Shown here: in pieces, positions 1 through 9,430 of the stretch
Layout: every line of letters starts with the position of its first letter
Position numbering within the stretch: position 1 is the stretch's first letter
Notes under the pieces: generated by a model
Told to the model about the DNA's origin: nothing
Databases searched by the model: none
Seen by the model: the letters and a program-made list of their open reading frames with translations, nothing else
NCBI GenBank assembly: GCA_021741465.1
Contig: JAIOXV010000004.1
Coordinates: 1-53,998 of the forward strand
Length of the DNA: 53,998 bases
From: Paracoccaceae bacterium
Lineage (GTDB): Bacteria > Pseudomonadota > Alphaproteobacteria > Rhodobacterales > Rhodobacteraceae
Reading direction: 5' to 3'
Position numbers and translations under genes: made by a program

Positions 1-2
1 AA

Positions 3-1427
3 GACGGCACCACCCGGTTTTCCAGCCTTGATCCGGCAACCGGCCAAGCTTGGGCCGAGATGCCCAATGCCACCGCCGCCGATGTGACCCGCGCGGTTGA
101 GGCGGCGCATCGTGCCTTCTTGGGCCAGCCTTGGGCCGGGCTGGCGGCCACGGCGCGCGGCAAATTGCTCTACAAACTTGCCGATCTGGTTCAGGCCGCC
201 GCCCCGCGTCTGGCGGCGTTGGAAACCCGTGATACCGGCAAGATCATCCGCGAAACCAGTGCCCAGATTGCCTATGTTGCCGATTATTACCGCTATTATG
301 CGGGGCTTGCCGACAAGATCGAAGGCGCCCATCTGCCGATCGACAAGCCGGATATGGAGGTTTGGCTGCGCCGCGAACCCGTGGGCGTGGTCGCCGCCAT
401 CGTGCCATGGAACTCGCAGCTTTTCCTGTCGGCTGTCAAACTTGGCCCGGCCTTGGCCGCTGGCTGCACGGTGGTTCTGAAAGCCTCAGAAGACGGCCCC
501 GCACCGCTTTTGGAGTTTGCGCGTCTGGTGCATGAGGCGGGCTTCCCCCCCGGCGTGGTCAATATCCTGACCGGCGGGCCAGAGGCGGGCCGGGCGCTGA
601 CCACACACCCCAAGGTCGCCCATATCGCCTTTACCGGCGGCCCGGAAACCGCCCGGCATATCGTGCGGGCCAGTGCCGAGAACCTGTCGAAAACCTCGCT
701 TGAACTGGGCGGAAAATCCCCTTTCATCGTCTTCGATGATGCCGATCTGGACTCTGCCGCCAATGCCCAAGTGGCGGGCATTTTCGCGGCCACCGGCCAA
801 AGCTGTGTCGCAGGCTCGCGCCACCTCGTGCAGCGGTCAGTCAAAGACGCCATGCTGAGCCGCCTGAAAGCCAAAGCCGAGGCGGTGGCCATCGGCGCAC
901 CTGACCGCATGACCACCGAGGTCGGCCCGCTGTGCACCCAGCGCCAGCGGGACCGCATTCAGGCGCTGGTCGATGCCTCGCGCGCCGCCGGGGCCAAACT
1001 TGTCACCGGCGGCATCACCCCGGCAGGCCCCGGCTTTTACTACCCGCCGACGATTCTCGATTGCACCGACGCCCCCGATGCGCCCTGCGTCCGGCAGGAA
1101 TGCTTTGGCCCCATCCTGTCAGTCATCGCCTTTGACACCGAGGATCAGGCGCTGAGCCTTGCCAATGACACCGCCTATGGGCTGGCCTCGGGCGTGTTCA
1201 CCCGCTCGCTGACCCGGGCGCATCGGATGATCCGGGGCATTCGCGCCGGGATTGTCTGGGTGAACACCTATCGCGCGGTGTCGCCCATCGCGCCTTTTGG
1301 CGGCCATGGGCTTTCGGGCCACGGGCGCGAAGGCGGCATGGCGGCGGCGCTGGATTACACCACGGTGAAAACCGTCTGGCTGCGCACCTCGGACGACCCG
1401 ATCCCCGATCCGTTCGTGATGCGCTAG
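3..1427 (+). CDS. aldehyde dehydrogenase family protein (5' end outside window)
   Basis: Frame is open from the window start (DGTTRFSSLDPATGQAWAEMPNATAADV...). Contains PWNSQLFLSAVKLGPALAAGCTVVLKASE, FTGGPETARHI, LELGGKSPFIVFDDADLD, ATGQSCVAGSR and the C-terminal PFGGHGLSGHGREGG motifs. Confidence 0.93.
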   Translation, partial: DGTTRFSSLDPATGQAWAEMPNATAADVTRAVEAAHRAFLGQPWAGLAATARGKLLYKLADLVQAAAPRLAALETRDTGKIIRETSAQIAYVADYYRYYAGLADKIEGAHLPIDKPDMEVWLRREPVGVVAAIVPWNSQLFLSAVKLGPALAAGCTVVLKASEDGPAPLLEFARLVHEAGFPPGVVNILTGGPEAGRALTTHPKVAHIAFTGGPETARHIVRASAENLSKTSLELGGKSPFIVFDDADLDSAANAQVAGIFAATGQSCVAGSRHLVQRSVKDAMLSRLKAKAEAVAIGAPDRMTTEVGPLCTQRQRDRIQALVDASRAAGAKLVTGGITPAGPGFYYPPTILDCTDAPDAPCVRQECFGPILSVIAFDTEDQALSLANDTAYGLASGVFTRSLTRAHRMIRGIRAGIVWVNTYRAVSPIAPFGGHGLSGHGREGGMAAALDYTTVKTVWLRTSDDPIPDPFVMR

Positions 1428-2077
1428 GCGTAACTCCGCGCGCCGAAAATCGCGCTGCCCACCCGCACATGGGTGGCCCCATGGGCGATGGCGGCCTCAA
1501 AATCGCTGCTCATGCCCATCGACAGGCCGTGAAGTCCATTGCGCGTGGCCATCTCTGACAGCGCCTTGAAATGCGGCGTGGCGTCTTGCCCTTCGGGTGG
1601 AATGCACATCAGCCCCCCGACCGGCAAGTCCATAGCGCGAGCGGCGGCAATGAAAGCGTCCAGATCACCGGGCAGCACACCGGCCTTTTGCGGCTCTGCC
1701 CCGGTATTCACCTGCACGAAAAGTTCCGGGCAACTGCCGCGCTCTTGCACAAGGCGCGCAAGCTTTTCAGCCAGTGATGGGCGGTCAACCGAATGAATCG
1801 CATCAAACAGTTCCAGCGCAAGCTTGGCCTTGTTGGTTTGTAAGGGGCCAATCATGTGCACGGCCACACCAGAAAACCGCGCCCGCAGGTCCGGCCATTT
1901 GCCCGCGGCCTCTTGCACATAGTTTTCACCAAACAGCCGATGGCCAGCCTCAAGCACCGCGACGACACGGTCCAAGGGCTGCACCTTTGAAACTGCAATC
2001 AACTGCGCAGCACCCGGCGCGCGGCCATGGGCGGCTTCGGCAGCGCGGATACGTTGGGTGATTTCGGCAAGGGACAT
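1424..2077 (-). CDS. YggS family pyridoxal phosphate-dependent (PLP homeostasis) protein
   Basis: AVSKVQPLDRVVAVLEAGHRLFGENYVQEAAGKW, HMIGPLQTNKAKLALELFDAIHSVDRPSLAEKL, LSMGMSSDFEAAIAHGATHVRVGSAIFGAR. Confidence 0.95.
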   Translation of the reverse strand: MSLAEITQRIRAAEAAHGRAPGAAQLIAVSKVQPLDRVVAVLEAGHRLFGENYVQEAAGKWPDLRARFSGVAVHMIGPLQTNKAKLALELFDAIHSVDRPSLAEKLARLVQERGSCPELFVQVNTGAEPQKAGVLPGDLDAFIAAARAMDLPVGGLMCIPPEGQDATPHFKALSEMATRNGLHGLSMGMSSDFEAAIAHGATHVRVGSAIFGARSYA

Positions 2078-2280
2078 GTGCAGGGTTCTCCTGCCGGGCA
2101 GATGGCCACAAACCGCCCAGAAAGGAAAGCCAGCGAAGAGAAAAATGCGCAGTCAGGGGGCCGAACCTGAAGAGTTTCTCGGCGCCAATCCGCGGAAAAA
2201 CGACGCTCGATCGGTGCCCGATTCGCCTATTTCTAAGGTGGCAAGAAGTTTATAATTTCCGTGTGTCCTAGAAATAAAGT

Positions 2281-2307
2281 CTTCTCGCGACTACTGCCCT
2301 GGCTCTG
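2281..2307 (+). repeat. left arm of perfect 27-bp inverted repeat (CTTCTCGCGACTACTGCCCTGGCTCTG)
   Basis: Exact reverse complement of 5448-5474. Identity stops abruptly at the start-codon side (AAATAAAGT versus AAAAAGGTT). Confidence 0.95.
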
Positions 2308-3162
2308 TCGGCTGGCGTCGCTTCCGCTGAAATCTCGCTCTCGGGCAACGCTCGTATGGGTCTGCAGTACACTTCGGCAACGGGCGACACCCGTATTGAA
2401 AAGCGTATGACTGTTGACATCACCGGCACCAGCGAAACGTCTTCGGGCATCACCTTTGGTGCCAAGATGCGTCTGCGTTCGAACGAAGCTGCAGGCACTG
2501 TTATCGCCGGCGCTCGCGTTTACATGCAGACCAACGGCTTTGAAGTCGCCATGGGCAACATCAACGGCGCCATCGAATGGATGCCGGGCATCTACTCGCC
2601 GTCCGTTGGCCTGACCGGCCTGGGCTGGGGTGGTCTTTCGACCAACACCGCTGCTAAGGGCTACTTCAACTGGGACGCTTACTCGTCTTCGGGCAACGGC
2701 GCTGAAGGCGTTGAAGTGATGTACTCGGCTGGCGCATTCTCGGGCCACGTTTCGTACTCGGAACCGACCCTGTCGTCGGGTGCTTCGGCTCAGAAGCGCG
2801 CTGCCGCTTATGGCGCTTACACCTTCAACGACTGGACTGTTGCTCTTGGTATGCAGAAGTCGTCGATCGCCGCTGAGGACAAAGTTGTTCTGACCGTGGG
2901 CGGCAACATCGGTGACTACGGCGTTGGTCTGGGCATCGCCGACAACGATGGCGTTCGCAAAATCGCGCTTAACGGTTCGGCCACCTTCGGCGCAACCACG
3001 ATCTCGGCTTACGTTGCTGACGAAGACAGCGTTCTCGCAACCGACACCTCCTATGGCCTCGGCGTTTCCTATGACCTGGGCGGTGCCTCGGTTGTTGGTG
3101 GCGTGTCGCAAAGCGAAGTCGGCACCAAGCGTGCTGATCTGGGTGTTTCCTTCTCGTTCTAA
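2281..3162 (+). pseudogene. porin, start-less copy (candidate silent cassette)
   Basis: The porin frame reads S-LLATTALALSAGVASAEISLSGNARMGLQYTSATGDTRIEKRMTVDITG...GVSFSF*. The codons just upstream are TAG AAA TAA AGT, so there is no start codon and MKK is missing. The rest of the frame is open to a normal C-terminus. Confidence 0.85.
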
Positions 3163-3183
3163 TCTGAACGGAACGGTTACGGA

Positions 3184-3209
3184 AAAGGCGGCCTTCGGGC
3201 CGCCTTTTT
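3184..3209 (+). terminator. rho-independent terminator after the porin cassette
   Basis: AAAGGCGGCC TTCG GGCCGCCTTT TT: 10-bp stem, tetraloop and T-run, starting 21 nt after the stop codon. Confidence 0.9.
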
Positions 3210-3438
3210 CTATTGCGCTATTGCGATAGATTTAATCACCAACGCAGGTCTGGTGTATCTGGAATATATTTTTGAAACCACGAATTCGCAAAAAACGGCA
3301 ATGCGCTTTAAAATTCGGCCAGACCTGATCAACTGGCTGTCCCGTATTTTAATCATGGGGCACGACCACGCATAAAAGCGTGCGATTGGTAAAATGAAAT
3401 CAGCGCAAGATTTGTTATGCCGGCAGAGCCGAGCAGTA

Positions 3439-4398
3439 TTAATCCACAAGCCCTGCGACGATTTCAACACGCTCTGCCAATGTATTCGGCAGAAGATGCG
3501 CGTATCTTTCGGTCATCGAGATATGAAAGTGGCCAAGAAGCTTTTGCACTTCATAAAGGCTGGCGCCCTTGTTTATAAGCATGCTGGCATAGGTGTGGCG
3601 AAGGTCGTGGATGCGGACTTTCGGCAAACCTGCATCTTGGCGAATACGCTCCCAAGACGAAAAGAAGCAATTATAGGGTTTACGAAAGCGCGGGTTTTGA
3701 AAGACGTAGTCGTCTTGTTTTGTGCTGATGTTGAACAATTCATTCCGTGGACGCATTGACTGCAGCAATTCAACAGCGGCGCCGCTTAAAACAATACGGC
3801 GCGCGCGCCCGTTCTTGCTGACGGGAACGGTCCAGATTCGCGTTTGCAGATCTATGTCGCGCCAGCGTGCCAGGCGTGCTTCCCCGCTTCGTGCCCCTGT
3901 CAGGATCAGCAACTTAAGGATGAAGTACATGAAGGGATGCTGGTCCCTTTCGGCACTTTTCAACACTGCTGCGATCTCGTCTACGCCGAGAAAGCGCTGT
4001 TTGAAGTCCCCGAGCGGAAGGCGCTTTATCTGAAGATTTTCAAACGTGTTCTGATCGATATAATTCCAACGTCTCGCAAGATTTAAAAGCCTATTCACGA
4101 GAAAAATGTGTTTATTGATTGTACTCGTTTGATACTTCTTTTTTACTTGGTCGCGCACCCAACTATCCAGCAATGCATTATCAATTTCTGGAAAGCGAAA
4201 CTTCCCCAAAAATTCTCGCATATGTTTGTCAAAGGTCTGCAAAACGACCTTCGGCTTTTTGCGAGTTGATTCGGCGTGTGGATAGTAATGCGTATCAAAG
4301 AACTCACTCAGCGTGACGCTTTGTTTCTTGATTATAGCGTTGGAAATAAGGCCTTCCGCGCTTTGATTGAGCAGTTTTGAAAGCAAACCCATGTGCAT
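3439..4398 (-). CDS. tyrosine recombinase / site-specific integrase
   Basis: Catalytic residues visible: TGARSGEA (R), HDLRHTYAS (HxxR), LLGH (H), MTERYAHL (Y). SAM-like N-terminal domain. Lower GC than its surroundings. Confidence 0.93.
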   Translation of the reverse strand: MHMGLLSKLLNQSAEGLISNAIIKKQSVTLSEFFDTHYYPHAESTRKKPKVVLQTFDKHMREFLGKFRFPEIDNALLDSWVRDQVKKKYQTSTINKHIFLVNRLLNLARRWNYIDQNTFENLQIKRLPLGDFKQRFLGVDEIAAVLKSAERDQHPFMYFILKLLILTGARSGEARLARWRDIDLQTRIWTVPVSKNGRARRIVLSGAAVELLQSMRPRNELFNISTKQDDYVFQNPRFRKPYNCFFSSWERIRQDAGLPKVRIHDLRHTYASMLINKGASLYEVQKLLGHFHISMTERYAHLLPNTLAERVEIVAGLVD

Positions 4399-4422
4399 TC
4401 CCTCAAATCGTACCGGGCGTTA

Positions 4423-4455
4423 TTTTAAGGGGACAATGGCGTCCGACCCTTAAAA
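4423..4455. promoter_or_regulatory. 9-bp inverted repeat upstream of the recombinase (possible operator or recombinase site)
   Basis: TTTTAAGGG-GACAATGGCGTCCGA-CCCTTAAAA; perfect 9-bp arms, with an inner GGAC/GTCC pair, 25-57 bp upstream of the recombinase start. Confidence 0.5.
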
Positions 4456-4526
4456 ACGCAATTAATTCATTAACTTGCAAATGTTCCTGCCGCCCCTTAT
4501 AATATTGGGCTTTTTTATACAGGAAA

Positions 4527-4556
4527 GGAGAGAGCGAAGTTGCCTTCGCTCTCTCC
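4527..4556 (-). terminator. terminator of the minus-strand porin
   Basis: GGAGAGAGCGAAG-TTGC-CTTCGCTCTCTCC: 13-bp perfect stem starting 27 nt past the porin stop. On the minus strand it is followed by TTTCCTGTATAAAAAAG. Confidence 0.7.
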
Positions 4557-4583
4557 CCCTAGACTTAAACGATCACGTTCAGA

Positions 4584-5486
4584 TTAGAACTTGAACGACA
4601 CGCCCATGTCGGCACGGTTGGTGCCCGAAGAGGTGCGTGCAACGCCGCCAACGATCTTGGCACCGCCGAGGTCATAGGCAACGCCCATGCCCATCGGATT
4701 GTTCGAAGCGCTTTCTTCGTTGGTGATGTAAGCCGAAACGGTGGTCGCACCGAAGGTGGTCGAGCCGTTCAGGGCGATCTTACGCTCGCCGTCGTTGTCA
4801 GCAGCTGCGAAGCCGAGGCCGATGTCGCCGACTTTGCCGGTAACGGTCACGACCATCTTGTCTTCGGTGCTGGTGGTCGACGATTGCGTACCAGCAGCGA
4901 CGGTCCAGTCACCCATTGCATAGGAAACTGCAGCGGCGGTGCGCGAAGAAGCCGAACCCAGATCGGCGTCCGAGTAGCTCAAGTGAGCGGACATGGCGCC
5001 AGCCGAGTACATCACTTCGACGCCTTCAGCGCCGTTGCCCGAGGACGAGTAAGCGTCCCAGCCCCAGTAGCCTTTGGCGTCGGTGTTGATCGCCAGACCA
5101 CCCCAGCCGAGGCCGGTCAGGCCAGCGGAAGCGTCGTACACGCCGTTCATCCACTCGAGAGCGCCGTAGATGTTGCCAACGCCGATTTCAACGCCATTGG
5201 TCTGCATGTAAACGCGAGCGCCAGACAGATAAGCCCCGCCCATCGCGTCGCCAGCGCCATCCGAAGCGCCGCCTTCATTTGAACGGATATTCATCGCAGC
5301 ACCAACGGTCATGCCCGAGGTGGTTTCGGTCGAACCGTTGATCGTAACGGTCATACGCTTTTCGATGGAGTTGTCGCCATCGTTGTACTGGATACCCATG
5401 CGGGCGTTGCCCGAGAGCGATACATCAGCAGAAGCGACGCCAGCGGTCAGAGCCAGGGCAGTAGTCGCGAGAAGAACCTTTTTCAT
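4584..5486 (-). CDS. porin (intact, with signal peptide)
   Basis: MKKVLLATTALALTAGVASADVSLSGNARMGIQYNDGDNSIEKRMTV...ADMGVSFKF*. Collinear paralogue of 2281-3162. Confidence 0.93.
   Translation of the reverse strand: MKKVLLATTALALTAGVASADVSLSGNARMGIQYNDGDNSIEKRMTVTINGSTETTSGMTVGAAMNIRSNEGGASDGAGDAMGGAYLSGARVYMQTNGVEIGVGNIYGALEWMNGVYDASAGLTGLGWGGLAINTDAKGYWGWDAYSSSGNGAEGVEVMYSAGAMSAHLSYSDADLGSASSRTAAAVSYAMGDWTVAAGTQSSTTSTEDKMVVTVTGKVGDIGLGFAAADNDGERKIALNGSTTFGATTVSAYITNEESASNNPMGMGVAYDLGGAKIVGGVARTSSGTNRADMGVSFKF
5448..5474 (-). repeat. right arm of perfect 27-bp inverted repeat
   Basis: CAGAGCCAGGGCAGTAGTCGCGAGAAG on + strand, the reverse complement of 2281-2307. Confidence 0.95.
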
Positions 5487-5800
5487 CGTTTTCCCTCATT
5501 TGTCAAAGGTGGTGCCCAACTCAGGGGAATCCGAATTGGGTATGGAGCATGTGTCGCCGCTTGGGGCAGCGATTGCAATGCAGACGAAACCGCAGCGGGG
5601 AAGAAGGAAAATCGTGATGCAGCAATGTCACAGTCATGCTTTGGGCCAGGCTTGCCCCACTCAGGCCACAAAACGCGGGTTCATCGCCACAATAGATGGG
5701 GTCGCGAGCGCCCGCTTGCCCCATAAGCGTGGTGAAAAGCCTTGTTCCACCCCGCACCCTCGGCTAGATAACTAAGCAAGATCGACCCCGGGGGCCCCGA

Positions 5801-6331
5801 ATGACTGTTGCACGCCTTGCCCGTAACGCCTTCCTCGTTCTTGCCCTGGCAAGCCTTTCGGCCTGCGGTGGCGGGATCGGCAGCAGCAAATGGTTCGGCG
5901 GAAACGGTGGTGGGTTGAAGGCCTCGGCCCAGCAAGAAGCGGTTCCAGCCGTGCGCGGGCGTCAAGGCTATTACCGCAGCGGCACCAAAACCACGTTGCG
6001 CGATTTGTTTGCAGGCGGCGCAGACGCGAACACCACCCTTGAGGTCAACCGCTATATCTGGGCGGCCAGCCTTGAGGTTCTGAATTTCCTGCCCATCGAA
6101 TCGGTTGACCCCTTCTCTGGGGTGATTGTCACCGGTTATGGCACGCCACCCGGTGGCGGGCGTGCTTATCGTGCCACTGTGTTGGTGCAAGACCCCGCCC
6201 TTGATGCCCGCAGCCTGAAGCTGGCACTTCAATCCAAGGGCGGTGCGGTTGACCCGGCTACAGTGCGTGCCGTGGAAGACGCCATTCTGACCCGCGCCCG
6301 TCAGTTGCGCGCACAGGACGGCAAGCTTTAA
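5801..6331 (+). CDS. DUF3576 domain-containing lipoprotein
   Basis: Lipoprotein signal LASLSACGGG. Body GVNRYIW-like (LEVNRYIWAASLEVLNFLPIESVDPFSGVIVTGYGTPPGG). Located directly before leuS, as I recall for this family in alphaproteobacteria. Confidence 0.8.
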   Translation: MTVARLARNAFLVLALASLSACGGGIGSSKWFGGNGGGLKASAQQEAVPAVRGRQGYYRSGTKTTLRDLFAGGADANTTLEVNRYIWAASLEVLNFLPIESVDPFSGVIVTGYGTPPGGGRAYRATVLVQDPALDARSLKLALQSKGGAVDPATVRAVEDAILTRARQLRAQDGKL

Positions 6332-6402
6332 ACCGCTTCAAGGCGTCTGGACCTTTGGCCCCCCGACGGTGTAATCCCGCCGGGTAAACCATGGGGCAAG
6401 AC

Positions 6403-8955
6403 ATGTCGCGCTACGAACCCTCCACCATCGAACCGAAATGGCAAAAAGCCTGGGACGAGGCTGCGGCATTTACCGCGCGGCGCGATCCGGCAAAGCCGAA
6501 ATACTATGTGCTTGAGATGTTCCCCTATCCTTCGGGGCGCATCCACATGGGGCATGTGCGCAACTATACCATGGGCGATGTGGTGGCCCGCTATAAGATG
6601 GCGCAGGGCTTTTCCGTTCTGCACCCGATGGGTTGGGATGCTTTCGGCATGCCTGCCGAAAACGCCGCGATGGAACGCGGTGGTCACCCGAAAGAATGGA
6701 CCTACGGCAACATCGCCGACATGCGGGCGCAGATGAAGCCCCTTGGCCTGTCAATCGACTGGTCGCGCGAATTCGCCACCTGCGATCCTGAATACTATGG
6801 CCAGCAACAGGCCATGTTCATCGACATGATGGAAGCCGGTCTGGTCTACCGCAAAGCCGCCGTGGTCAATTGGGACCCGGTAGATATGACGGTTCTGGCC
6901 AACGAACAGGTGATTGACGGCAAGGGCTGGCGGTCGGGTGCCGCGGTTGAGCGGCGCGAGCTGACGCAATGGTTTTTCAAGATCTCAGACTATTCAGAAG
7001 AATTGCTCTCGGCCTTGGACGGGCTGAAAGATTGGCCGGAAAAGGTTCGGCTGATGCAGGCCAACTGGATCGGCCAGTCGCGCGGCTTGCAGTTTGCCTT
7101 TGACACTGTCGGTGCGCCCGCGGGGTTTGAGCGTCTGGAAGTCTATACCACTCGCCCCGACACTCTGATGGGGGCAAGTTTTGCCGCAATTTCGCCTGAC
7201 CATCCGCTTGCGAAATCACTTGAGGCAGACCCAAAGGTTGCCGCCTTCCTTGCCCAATGCCGTCTGGGCGGCACCACCGCCGAGGCGCTGGAGACCGCCG
7301 AAAAGATCGGCATGGATACTGGCATTCGCGTGAAGCACCCGCTTGACCCGAATTGGGAGCTTCCGGTCTGGATCGCCAATTTCATTCTGATGGATTACGG
7401 CACAGGCGCCATTTTTGGCTGCCCCGCCCATGACCAGCGCGACTTTGACTTTGCAACGAAATACGGCCTGCCGATCAAGGCTGTTTTCACCGCTGACGGC
7501 ACCGATGCCGCCTTGGCCGAAGCATTCGTGCCGATGAAATCGGAAAAGGTCCACTACATCCGCGGTTTTTCGGGCGCAGAAACCCAAACCGGCGAAGAGG
7601 CCGTGGCATCTGCCATCGCCCATGCCGAAGCGAACGGCTATGGCCAAGGCGTCACCAAATACCGCCTTCGCGATTGGGGAATTTCCCGCCAGCGCTATTG
7701 GGGTTGCCCGATTCCGGTCATTCACTGTGCCTCCTGTGGCGTGGTGGCCGAGAAGAAGGAAAACCTGCCGGTCGAACTGCCAGATGACGTGACCTTTGAC
7801 ATTCCCGGCAATCCCCTGGACCGCCACCCGACCTGGCGCGACTGCAGCTGCCCGAAATGCGGTGCAGCGGCCCGGCGTGAAACCGATACGATGGATACGT
7901 TCGTGGATTCGTCCTGGTATTACGCCCGCTTCACCAGCCCCCGCGCCACCACGCCGACCGTAGCGGAAGATGCCGATTACTGGATGAACGTCGATCAATA
8001 TATCGGCGGCATCGAACACGCGATCCTGCACCTGCTGTACAGCCGCTTCTTCGCCCGCGCGATGCACAAGACCGGCCACCTGCCCGCAAAAGCCATTGAA
8101 CCGTTCAACGCGCTTTTTACCCAAGGCATGGTGACGCATGAAATCTATCTGACGCGCGATGCCAACGGGCGGCCAGTCTATCATCTGCCCGAAGACATCC
8201 TCCACACGGAAGCAGGGGCAACCTTGCAAGACGGCACGAAGGTTGAGGTCATTCCTTCAGCCAAAATGTCGAAATCCAAGAAGAATGTTGTTGATCCGAT
8301 GAATATCATCGCGGCTTTTGGGGCCGACACCGCGCGCTGGTTTGTCATGTCCGACAGCCCACCCGAACGCGATGTGGAATGGACGGCATCGGGGGCAGAG
8401 GCCACGTTCAAACACCTCTCCCGCGTCTGGGCCGCCTGCGACCGCATCGGCCAGATGCCCGCAGATCATAAGGGCGAAGGCGATGATGACTTGGCACGCA
8501 GTGTCGCGAAAGCCATCGAAGAGGTCACACGTGCCATCGAGACCTTTGCCTTCAACAAGGCGATTGCCGCTCTTTACGGCCTGACCAACACCATTGCCAA
8601 GGCGAATGCCTCGACCCCGGCGATGAAAGAGGCGATCCGCACGCTGGCAAAGCTGATGTCCCCGATGACGCCGCATATCGCGGAATCCATCTGGACCTAT
8701 CAGGGCGGTGCCGGACTTTGCGCGCAAGCGCCTTGGCCCAAGGCTGACCCGGCTCTTTTGGTGGACGATACCGTCACCTTGCCGATCCAGATCAACGGCA
8801 AGCGACGGGCGGAAATCAGCGTGCCAAAGGATATGCCCGCCTCTGAGGTTGAAAAGATTGCCCTCGCGGATGATGCTGTGGTCAAATTCCTTGCCGGGCA
8901 GCCGGTGAAGAAGATCATTGTTGTCCCGGGGCGCATCATCAATGTTGTCGTATAA
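6403..8955 (+). CDS. leuS: leucine--tRNA ligase
   Basis: [21 protein letters not shown] (HIGH-type), [28 protein letters not shown] (KMSKS), anticodon-binding C-terminus. Confidence 0.98.
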
Positions 8956-9430
8956 CCGCAGATCCCTTTTGCTTATGCCGCTGGCGCTGGCCGCCTGCGG
9001 CTTTGCACCTGCCTATGGGCCAAAAGGGTCGGCGCAGGCGCTTCAGGGCCATATTTGGGCTGACGAGCCGTCCGACAAGCTGAGCTTTGACTTTGTCGCC
9101 GCGATCGAGACGCGCTTTGGCCGCACCAAAGACGCCCGATATGGCCTGACCTATACGATCACCACCGAATCTGTCGGTGCGGGCTATACCACCAGCAACG
9201 CCATCACCCGGTATAACCTGAAAGGGCGGGTTGACTGGACGCTGAGCAATCTGGAAAGCGGCGCGCGGTTGACCGGCGGCACGGCGGAGAACTTCACCTC
9301 GTGGTCGGCGACCAGTGCGACCGTTGCCGGTCTTTCGGCCGAGGCGGACGCGGCAGAAAGGCTGATGATCCTGCTGGCTGACCAGATCGCGATGCAGATC
9401 TTGGCCGCTTCGCCCCGCTTTGCCCCATGA
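8942..9430 (+). CDS. lptE: LPS assembly lipoprotein LptE
   Basis: Lipobox [13 protein letters not shown], LptE-like size and position between leuS and holA. Confidence 0.85.

Follow-up and report, generated by a model that had tools for sequence, protein, structure and literature searches.

In the S-layer switch slpA/slpB of Lactobacillus and in SusC/RagA shuffling of Bacteroidales, an alternative surface-protein body is inverted behind one promoter; to our knowledge, Rhodobacteraceae are not among the described hosts of switches of these types. For omp1 of Dichelobacter nodosus, multiple site-specific inversion was reportedly described by Moses et al. in 1995. The vsa locus of Mycoplasma pulmonis comprises many silent copies. 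Its single expression site provides the promoter, the ribosome-binding site and the 5′ coding end, all of which the silent genes lack, and site-specific inversion within the coding region joins a new 3′ body to this site, the tyrosine recombinase HvsR being encoded nearby (PMC2268961). In the vpma locus of Mycoplasma agalactiae, which contains the gene of the tyrosine recombinase Xer1, inversion places a silent gene behind a unique promoter (PMC2268961). In the present study, a porin locus resembling these switches was analysed in a stretch of 53,998 nucleotides from a Paracoccaceae bacterium of the family Rhodobacteraceae (contig JAIOXV010000004.1 of assembly GCA_021741465.1), which at its full length is referred to as the window. 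The locus consists of a porin gene without a start codon, a tyrosine recombinase gene and a complete porin gene, and as a whole it is flanked by yggS on one side and by DUF3576-leuS on the other. It was compared with the corresponding loci of relatives, whose genomes are denoted by G numbers.

Porin locus of the window

With good probability, the locus is a site-specific DNA-inversion switch of a Porin_4-type porin that operates by start-codon capture. One chromosomal expression module would provide the promoter, the ribosome-binding site and the first codons MKKV, and the recombination site would be made up of a short left arm and the ~25 bp that follow these codons and code for the signal-peptide core L(L/F)ATTAL. 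A dedicated tyrosine recombinase would join this site with an inverted copy that opens a second porin body; the second body would thereby be placed in frame behind the start codons, and the body expressed until then would lose its start and go silent. This reading is carried by the anatomy of the locus, its exact junctions, the recurrence of the arrangement in multiple genera, a constraint on the site at the DNA level, intact silent open reading frames (ORFs) and a past rearrangement, each established by sequence comparison.

The original prediction, which was made from the letters of the window, had named a start-less porin, a tyrosine recombinase and a complete porin, and all three are present in the layout that it gave (Table 1). 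The inverted repeat at the two porin heads is perfect, as claimed, and its length is 28 bp instead of 27 bp. The stops TAG AAA TAA are indeed found immediately upstream of the silent copy. In-silico inversion through the arms yields a 297-amino-acid porin (MKKVLLATTALALSAGVASAEISLSGNARMGLQY...GVSFSF) behind the resident promoter and the MKKV start and leaves the currently expressed body without a start, preceded by the same stop codons, so that the anticipated swap of the start between the two porins was reproduced. The locus therefore combines the features of an inversion switch with 5′-end capture, namely one promoter and start site with start-less silent copies, identical inverted junction sites (the 28-bp core) through which inversion restores the frame (the 297-amino-acid ORF), and a dedicated, linked recombinase whose clade is tied to porin loci.

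The two porins of the window are paralogues with 62-64% amino acid identity and share further exact runs of 26 and 23 nt; on its own, the 28-bp repeat is therefore weak evidence and not improbable. Chance would not be expected to make the homology stop exactly at the edge of the repeat, nor to bring this edge back in genomes that are unrelated. The expressed porin is homologous to the solved porin 1PRN (5prn/1prn, E about 1e-14); its AlphaFold model reached a predicted local distance difference test score (pLDDT) of 31 and was discarded. Neither additional full porin copies nor a contig carrying the alternative junction were found in the genome of the window, and Rfam gave no match in window positions 1-9000.

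Comparison with congeners points to a rearrangement in the lineage of the window. The module upstream of the expressed porin has near-identical counterparts in the congeners G001 and G002. G001 is free of the recombinase and has the gene order leuS-DUF3576-porin-yggS, with yggS directly downstream of its single porin; its leuS is 93% identical to that of the window. The amino acid identity to the G001 porin is 68% for the silent body of the window vs 57% for the expressed porin, which marks the silent body as orthologous to the porin that is resident in the genus. Moreover, the silent body carries the GGAAAAGGCGGCCTTCGGGCCGCCTTTTTCT terminator, which in G001 is placed between porin and yggS and which runs in the opposite direction in the window. 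Since the terminator is inverted and the silent body is orthologous, the resident body was, most simply, inverted out of the expression site after the split from G001.

Table 1. Features of the porin locus and its surroundings in the window.
Feature	Position	Strand	Basis or remark
YggS-family pyridoxal phosphate (PLP) protein gene yggS	1424..2077	-	TIGR00044, E=4e-44; conserved neighbour
Candidate left half-site at the silent recombination site, GAAATAAAG	2271..2279	+	alignment of 16 silent junctions
Core of the silent recombination site, 28 bp	2280..2307	+	identical, in inverted orientation, to the expressed core
Silent porin body without a start, open over 294 codons up to the C-terminal Phe	2280..3162	+	Porin_4
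Terminator of the silent porin	3180..3211	+	31 nt identical to the porin/yggS intergenic terminator of G001
Tyrosine recombinase, inside the invertible segment	3439..4398	-	Phage_integrase (PF00589), E=3e-29
Candidate stem-loop terminator between expressed porin and recombinase	4527..4556	-	predicted by reading the sequence
Expressed porin, complete, 300 amino acids	4584..5486	-	Porin_4
Core of the expressed recombination site, signal-peptide codons L-L-A-T-T-A-L-A-L	5448..5475	-	28-bp exact repeat
Fixed expression module: start ATGAAAAAGGT, ribosome-binding site GAGGGAAAACG, upstream region	5476..5560	-	near-identical in G001 and G002
Invertible segment: both porin bodies and the recombinase, 3.2 kb	2280..5475	.	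in-silico inversion restores a porin ORF
DUF3576 gene, marker of the expression-site side	5801..6331	+	
leuS, second expression-site marker	6391..8955	+	used for tracing the locus in relatives

Recurrence among Rhodobacteraceae

The window protein belongs to the tyrosine recombinases (PF00589) and has the catalytic set R-K-H-R-H-Y, whose residues R170, K195, H264, R267, H290 and Y299 are invariant in an alignment of 19 full-length clade sequences. Close homologues were present in 17 of 298 sampled Rhodobacteraceae genomes, nearly all from different genera, the genome of the window included; the other copies showed 42-61% identity, and one of the 17, in G108, is degenerate. G332 and G334 were added by a genus-level look, which gave 18 genomes with an intact recombinase in total. 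A class-wide sample of 385 genomes, in which few Rhodobacteraceae were drawn, contained no homologue with E<1e-50 except that of the window itself. The clade is monophyletic with respect to the outgroups used (Shimodaira-Hasegawa-like approximate likelihood ratio test, SH-aLRT, 100), and its score is sharply set apart from that of the remaining tyrosine recombinases of the family. At nearly all of its loci a porin is located within about 1 kb; the comparison tyrosine recombinases of the family (L033-L045) have no adjoining porin.

A start-less open porin that begins at L(L/F)ATTAL or a local variant, with unrelated sequence upstream, was found in 16/18 genomes whose recombinase is intact. The two that depart from this are G133, whose contig starts right at the core, and G148, which is considered below. 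The arrangement recurs in at least 16 genera of Rhodobacteraceae. Start-less porins were found in none of 15 recombinase-free genomes with a readable porin start, and by this control the idea that start-less porins are general in the family was rejected. Porin number follows the recombinase, being mostly two in genomes that bear it and mostly one in genomes free of it. The companion porin is complete, and its upstream region, where contigs show it, usually adjoins DUF3576-leuS and in G048, G121 and G133 adjoins yggS instead. Amino acid identity of expressed and silent porins is 62-84% in several genomes and below 40% in G121 and G334. Silent bodies are open to the terminal Phe, with a within-genome pairwise ratio of nonsynonymous to synonymous substitution rates (dN/dS) of 0.09-0.47; that of the window has no stop codon and a pairwise dN/dS of 0.33-0.40. 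Open silent ORFs and these ratios fit intermittent expression of the genes. A frameshift of the start-less copy, for which relatives were to be inspected, was encountered in G332, where it reflects decay or an assembly error, the silent ORFs being otherwise open. Altogether, the predicted scheme of one expression site serving alternative bodies, with recombination in the signal-peptide codons by the adjoining recombinase, is supported by 18 further genomic loci and by the controls.

The junction proved to be sharp in most genomes. Within-genome copies are about 24% identical at positions -30 to -10 and near 100% identical over the first 27 core bases (about 0.24 immediately before and about 1.0 immediately after the repeat edge), which bears out the claim that porin homology ends there; further into the porin body the identity of expressed and silent copies declines. 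Core pairs from the same genome differed by 39 mismatches vs a shuffled mean of 101, with 0/20,000 shuffles as low, and oddities of one species are common to both of its copies, e.g. LFLTT in G152. Synonymous codons of the core also differ by recombinase presence, the first Thr being ACT in 8/12 genomes with vs 7/96 without it (p=7e-6). Cores matched within a genome and the difference in synonymous codons together indicate that the constraint acts on DNA. The silent left flanks, which are otherwise unrelated, have GAANNNRG-T in common; in 16 aligned silent junctions, G is found at -8 in 10/16, A at -7 in 11/16, G at -1 in 11/16 and T at 0 in 16/16. GAANNNRG-T on the left and ACTACTGCC on the right resemble a pair of half-sites separated by a spacer of about 9 bases and may constitute the recognition site of the recombinase.

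Site pairs located on the same contig are inverted in 9/11 cases and lie 3 to 109 kb apart: 3.2 kb in the window, 5.7 in G227, 6.3 in G178, 7.9 in G152, 8.2 in G048 and 22.7 kb in G334, and at long range 75 kb in G158 and 42 and 109 kb in G294. The recombinase had been predicted in or near the invertible segment; it lies inside the segment in the window, and in relatives it can lie outside, with sites up to about 109 kb apart. Between the sites leuS is often enclosed, and since leuS is essential, direct orientation would risk its deletion. The proposed comparison of porin loci for orientation was informative: the yggS-linked porin body, which is the sole porin of G001, a congener free of the recombinase, is silent in eight genomes (G014, G238, G263, G146, G178, G294, G332 and G334) and expressed in three (G152, G158 and G227), so that both switch states are seen between species.

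Several loci deviate from this pattern. In G108, a decayed recombinase fragment with a stop (L066:8007-8396) accompanies two porins with starts in direct order, which resembles a dead switch. G121 carries a second tyrosine recombinase, apparently the catalytic half only (200 amino acids; L054:10852-11454), beside the expressed porin, and its sites are direct. In G148, the two porins are complete and in direct repeat, and a serine resolvase/DNA invertase gene separates them (L060:7003-7596). Contig C2 of G294 (L058, L064, L232) holds two different clade recombinases, each beside its own start-less porin, and one expressed porin, possibly a three-body system. The expression module of G002 drives an unrelated porin body, followed by a fragment of a different tyrosine recombinase (L068:3353-4892), and beside yggS only a truncated 3′ porin remnant was seen, at a contig end (L069:11963-12601). 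Draft assemblies are broken at or inside the porin in G133 (start of C72), G146 (C26/C273), G002 (C49), G003 (C63) and G119 (C12), and such breaks could arise if both orientations coexist.

Weighing of the explanations

A number of observations weigh against an inversion switch. All evidence was obtained between species, and it is from this evidence that we infer coexisting orientations and reversibility within one strain. In G148 the recombinase is intact and both porin copies are complete with starts, and in G332 the silent porin (L222:8439-9330) is split by a frameshift, by decay or assembly error, next to an intact recombinase. Sites are direct in G121 and G148, where recombination would delete and not invert. 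The distribution of the recombinase is patchy, and the recombinase tree agrees poorly with that of leuS (Spearman 0.20), so that the recombinase module has probably spread horizontally between lineages. Additionally, the permutation and synonymous-codon tests leave shared ancestry among genomes uncorrected, and recognition of the putative half-sites is deduced from association.

Evidence of this between-species kind would also fit a slow replacement of porins, in which bodies were exchanged in the past on evolutionary time without phase variation within a clone and the silent copy serves as a reservoir; segments of 42-109 kb (G158, G294) may invert rarely. We regard this as unlikely, given that nearly all lineages have intact silent ORFs that are under purifying selection, that cores are still matched within each genome and that both linkage states occur repeatedly among relatives. 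Somewhat less probable is an integrative element, for which the recombinase would be an integrase and the porin signal-peptide sequence its attB; insertion would part the resident body from its start and bring a replacement, with the start-less copy as an att scar. Many integrases target 5′ or 3′ gene ends, the recombinase is matched by PHROG integrase profiles, and its patchy distribution, the weak congruence with leuS and the direct repeats with the recombinase between the copies in G121 and G148 would suit such an element. However, the direct repeats of att sites contrast with sites that are mostly inverted (9/11), and a third core site was found at no locus scanned. None was present on the far side of the recombinase, and a cassette bounded by two att sites was rejected because none was found near it. 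The segment of the window holds nothing but the recombinase and the porin bodies. ORFs sampled between the sites of G178 and G334 include chromosomal genes, e.g. GTP cyclohydrolase II in G178, and no phage structural or conjugation genes, although G148 has the serine invertase and G121 the partial second integrase; in other genomes leuS lies between the sites. The nearest phage and plasmid relatives of the recombinase are only 30% and 35% identical and viral contigs gave only a 27% match, distant matches on which a phage or plasmid origin of the recombinase was rejected. An integrative element is the main rival for the origin of the module and is disfavoured for its present function.

Hardly credible, finally, is an ordinary inverted porin duplication with a broken 5′ end that was rearranged by homologous recombination with the recombinase as a bystander. 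The copies are paralogous, at the 62-84% identity reached in several genomes, and inverted duplicates can recombine, but the break falls at the same codons in all start-less copies, even where the bodies are less than 40% identical, start-less copies are absent from the recombinase-free genomes checked, and the recombinase clade is tied to the locus. Both the constant junction and the controls contradict the idea that the recombinase is a bystander.

If the inversion switch is adopted as the preferred explanation, the window recombinase presumably catalyses the exchange, which would be reversible and frequent enough for phase variation, and the benefit may lie in a changed surface or pore, e.g. 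against phages, grazers or toxic solutes. Our confidence is evenly divided on a broader proposal, in which a family-wide, horizontally spread surface-variation system with its site in porin signal-peptide codons would act over 3 to about 109 kb, flips of the expression module, with the essential leuS, between fixed bodies being as frequent as flips of bodies behind the promoter.

Comparison with described inversion systems

Literature searches, with subscription papers outside their reach, revealed no inversion switch in Rhodobacteraceae or of a porin and no alphaproteobacterial example, and one inversion survey has none in its four alphaproteobacterial samples (PMC5903667). The system is recurrent, switch-like and apparently undescribed. 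The porin concerned is often the sole Porin_4-type porin of its genome. Rhodobacteraceae are among the most abundant marine bacteria, and if the switch is real, cells of one clonal population would differ in permeability and in the surface that phages and grazers encounter.

Piv-type inversion, to which the original prediction had likened the layout, turned out to be an unsuitable analogue: Piv, which inverts the pilin segment of Moraxella, is a transposase-like DEDD invertase and not a tyrosine recombinase, and the window recombinase, a PF00589 protein, falls outside the Piv type. The slpA/slpB and SusC/RagA systems differ from the present locus in their proteins and phyla. Closer in host, omp1 of Dichelobacter nodosus is, as cited in PMC5903667, a case of phase and antigenic variation of an outer-membrane protein by site-specific inversion in a proteobacterium; it belongs to a gammaproteobacterium and concerns a different protein, and the likeness is one of description, not of sequence. 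In vpma/Xer1, the site is in the 5′ untranslated region, and whole ORFs of many genes are moved (PMC2268961). By mechanism, and not by sequence, vsa/HvsR is the nearest described system in logic; it differs in that lipoproteins of wall-less bacteria with 714 nt of shared 5′ coding sequence are switched, as opposed to two porin bodies with the site in the first codons (PMC2268961). The type of mechanism is already known; the novelty lies in the host group, in the porin as cargo, in a site positioned among the first codons and in the long distances that can separate two sites.

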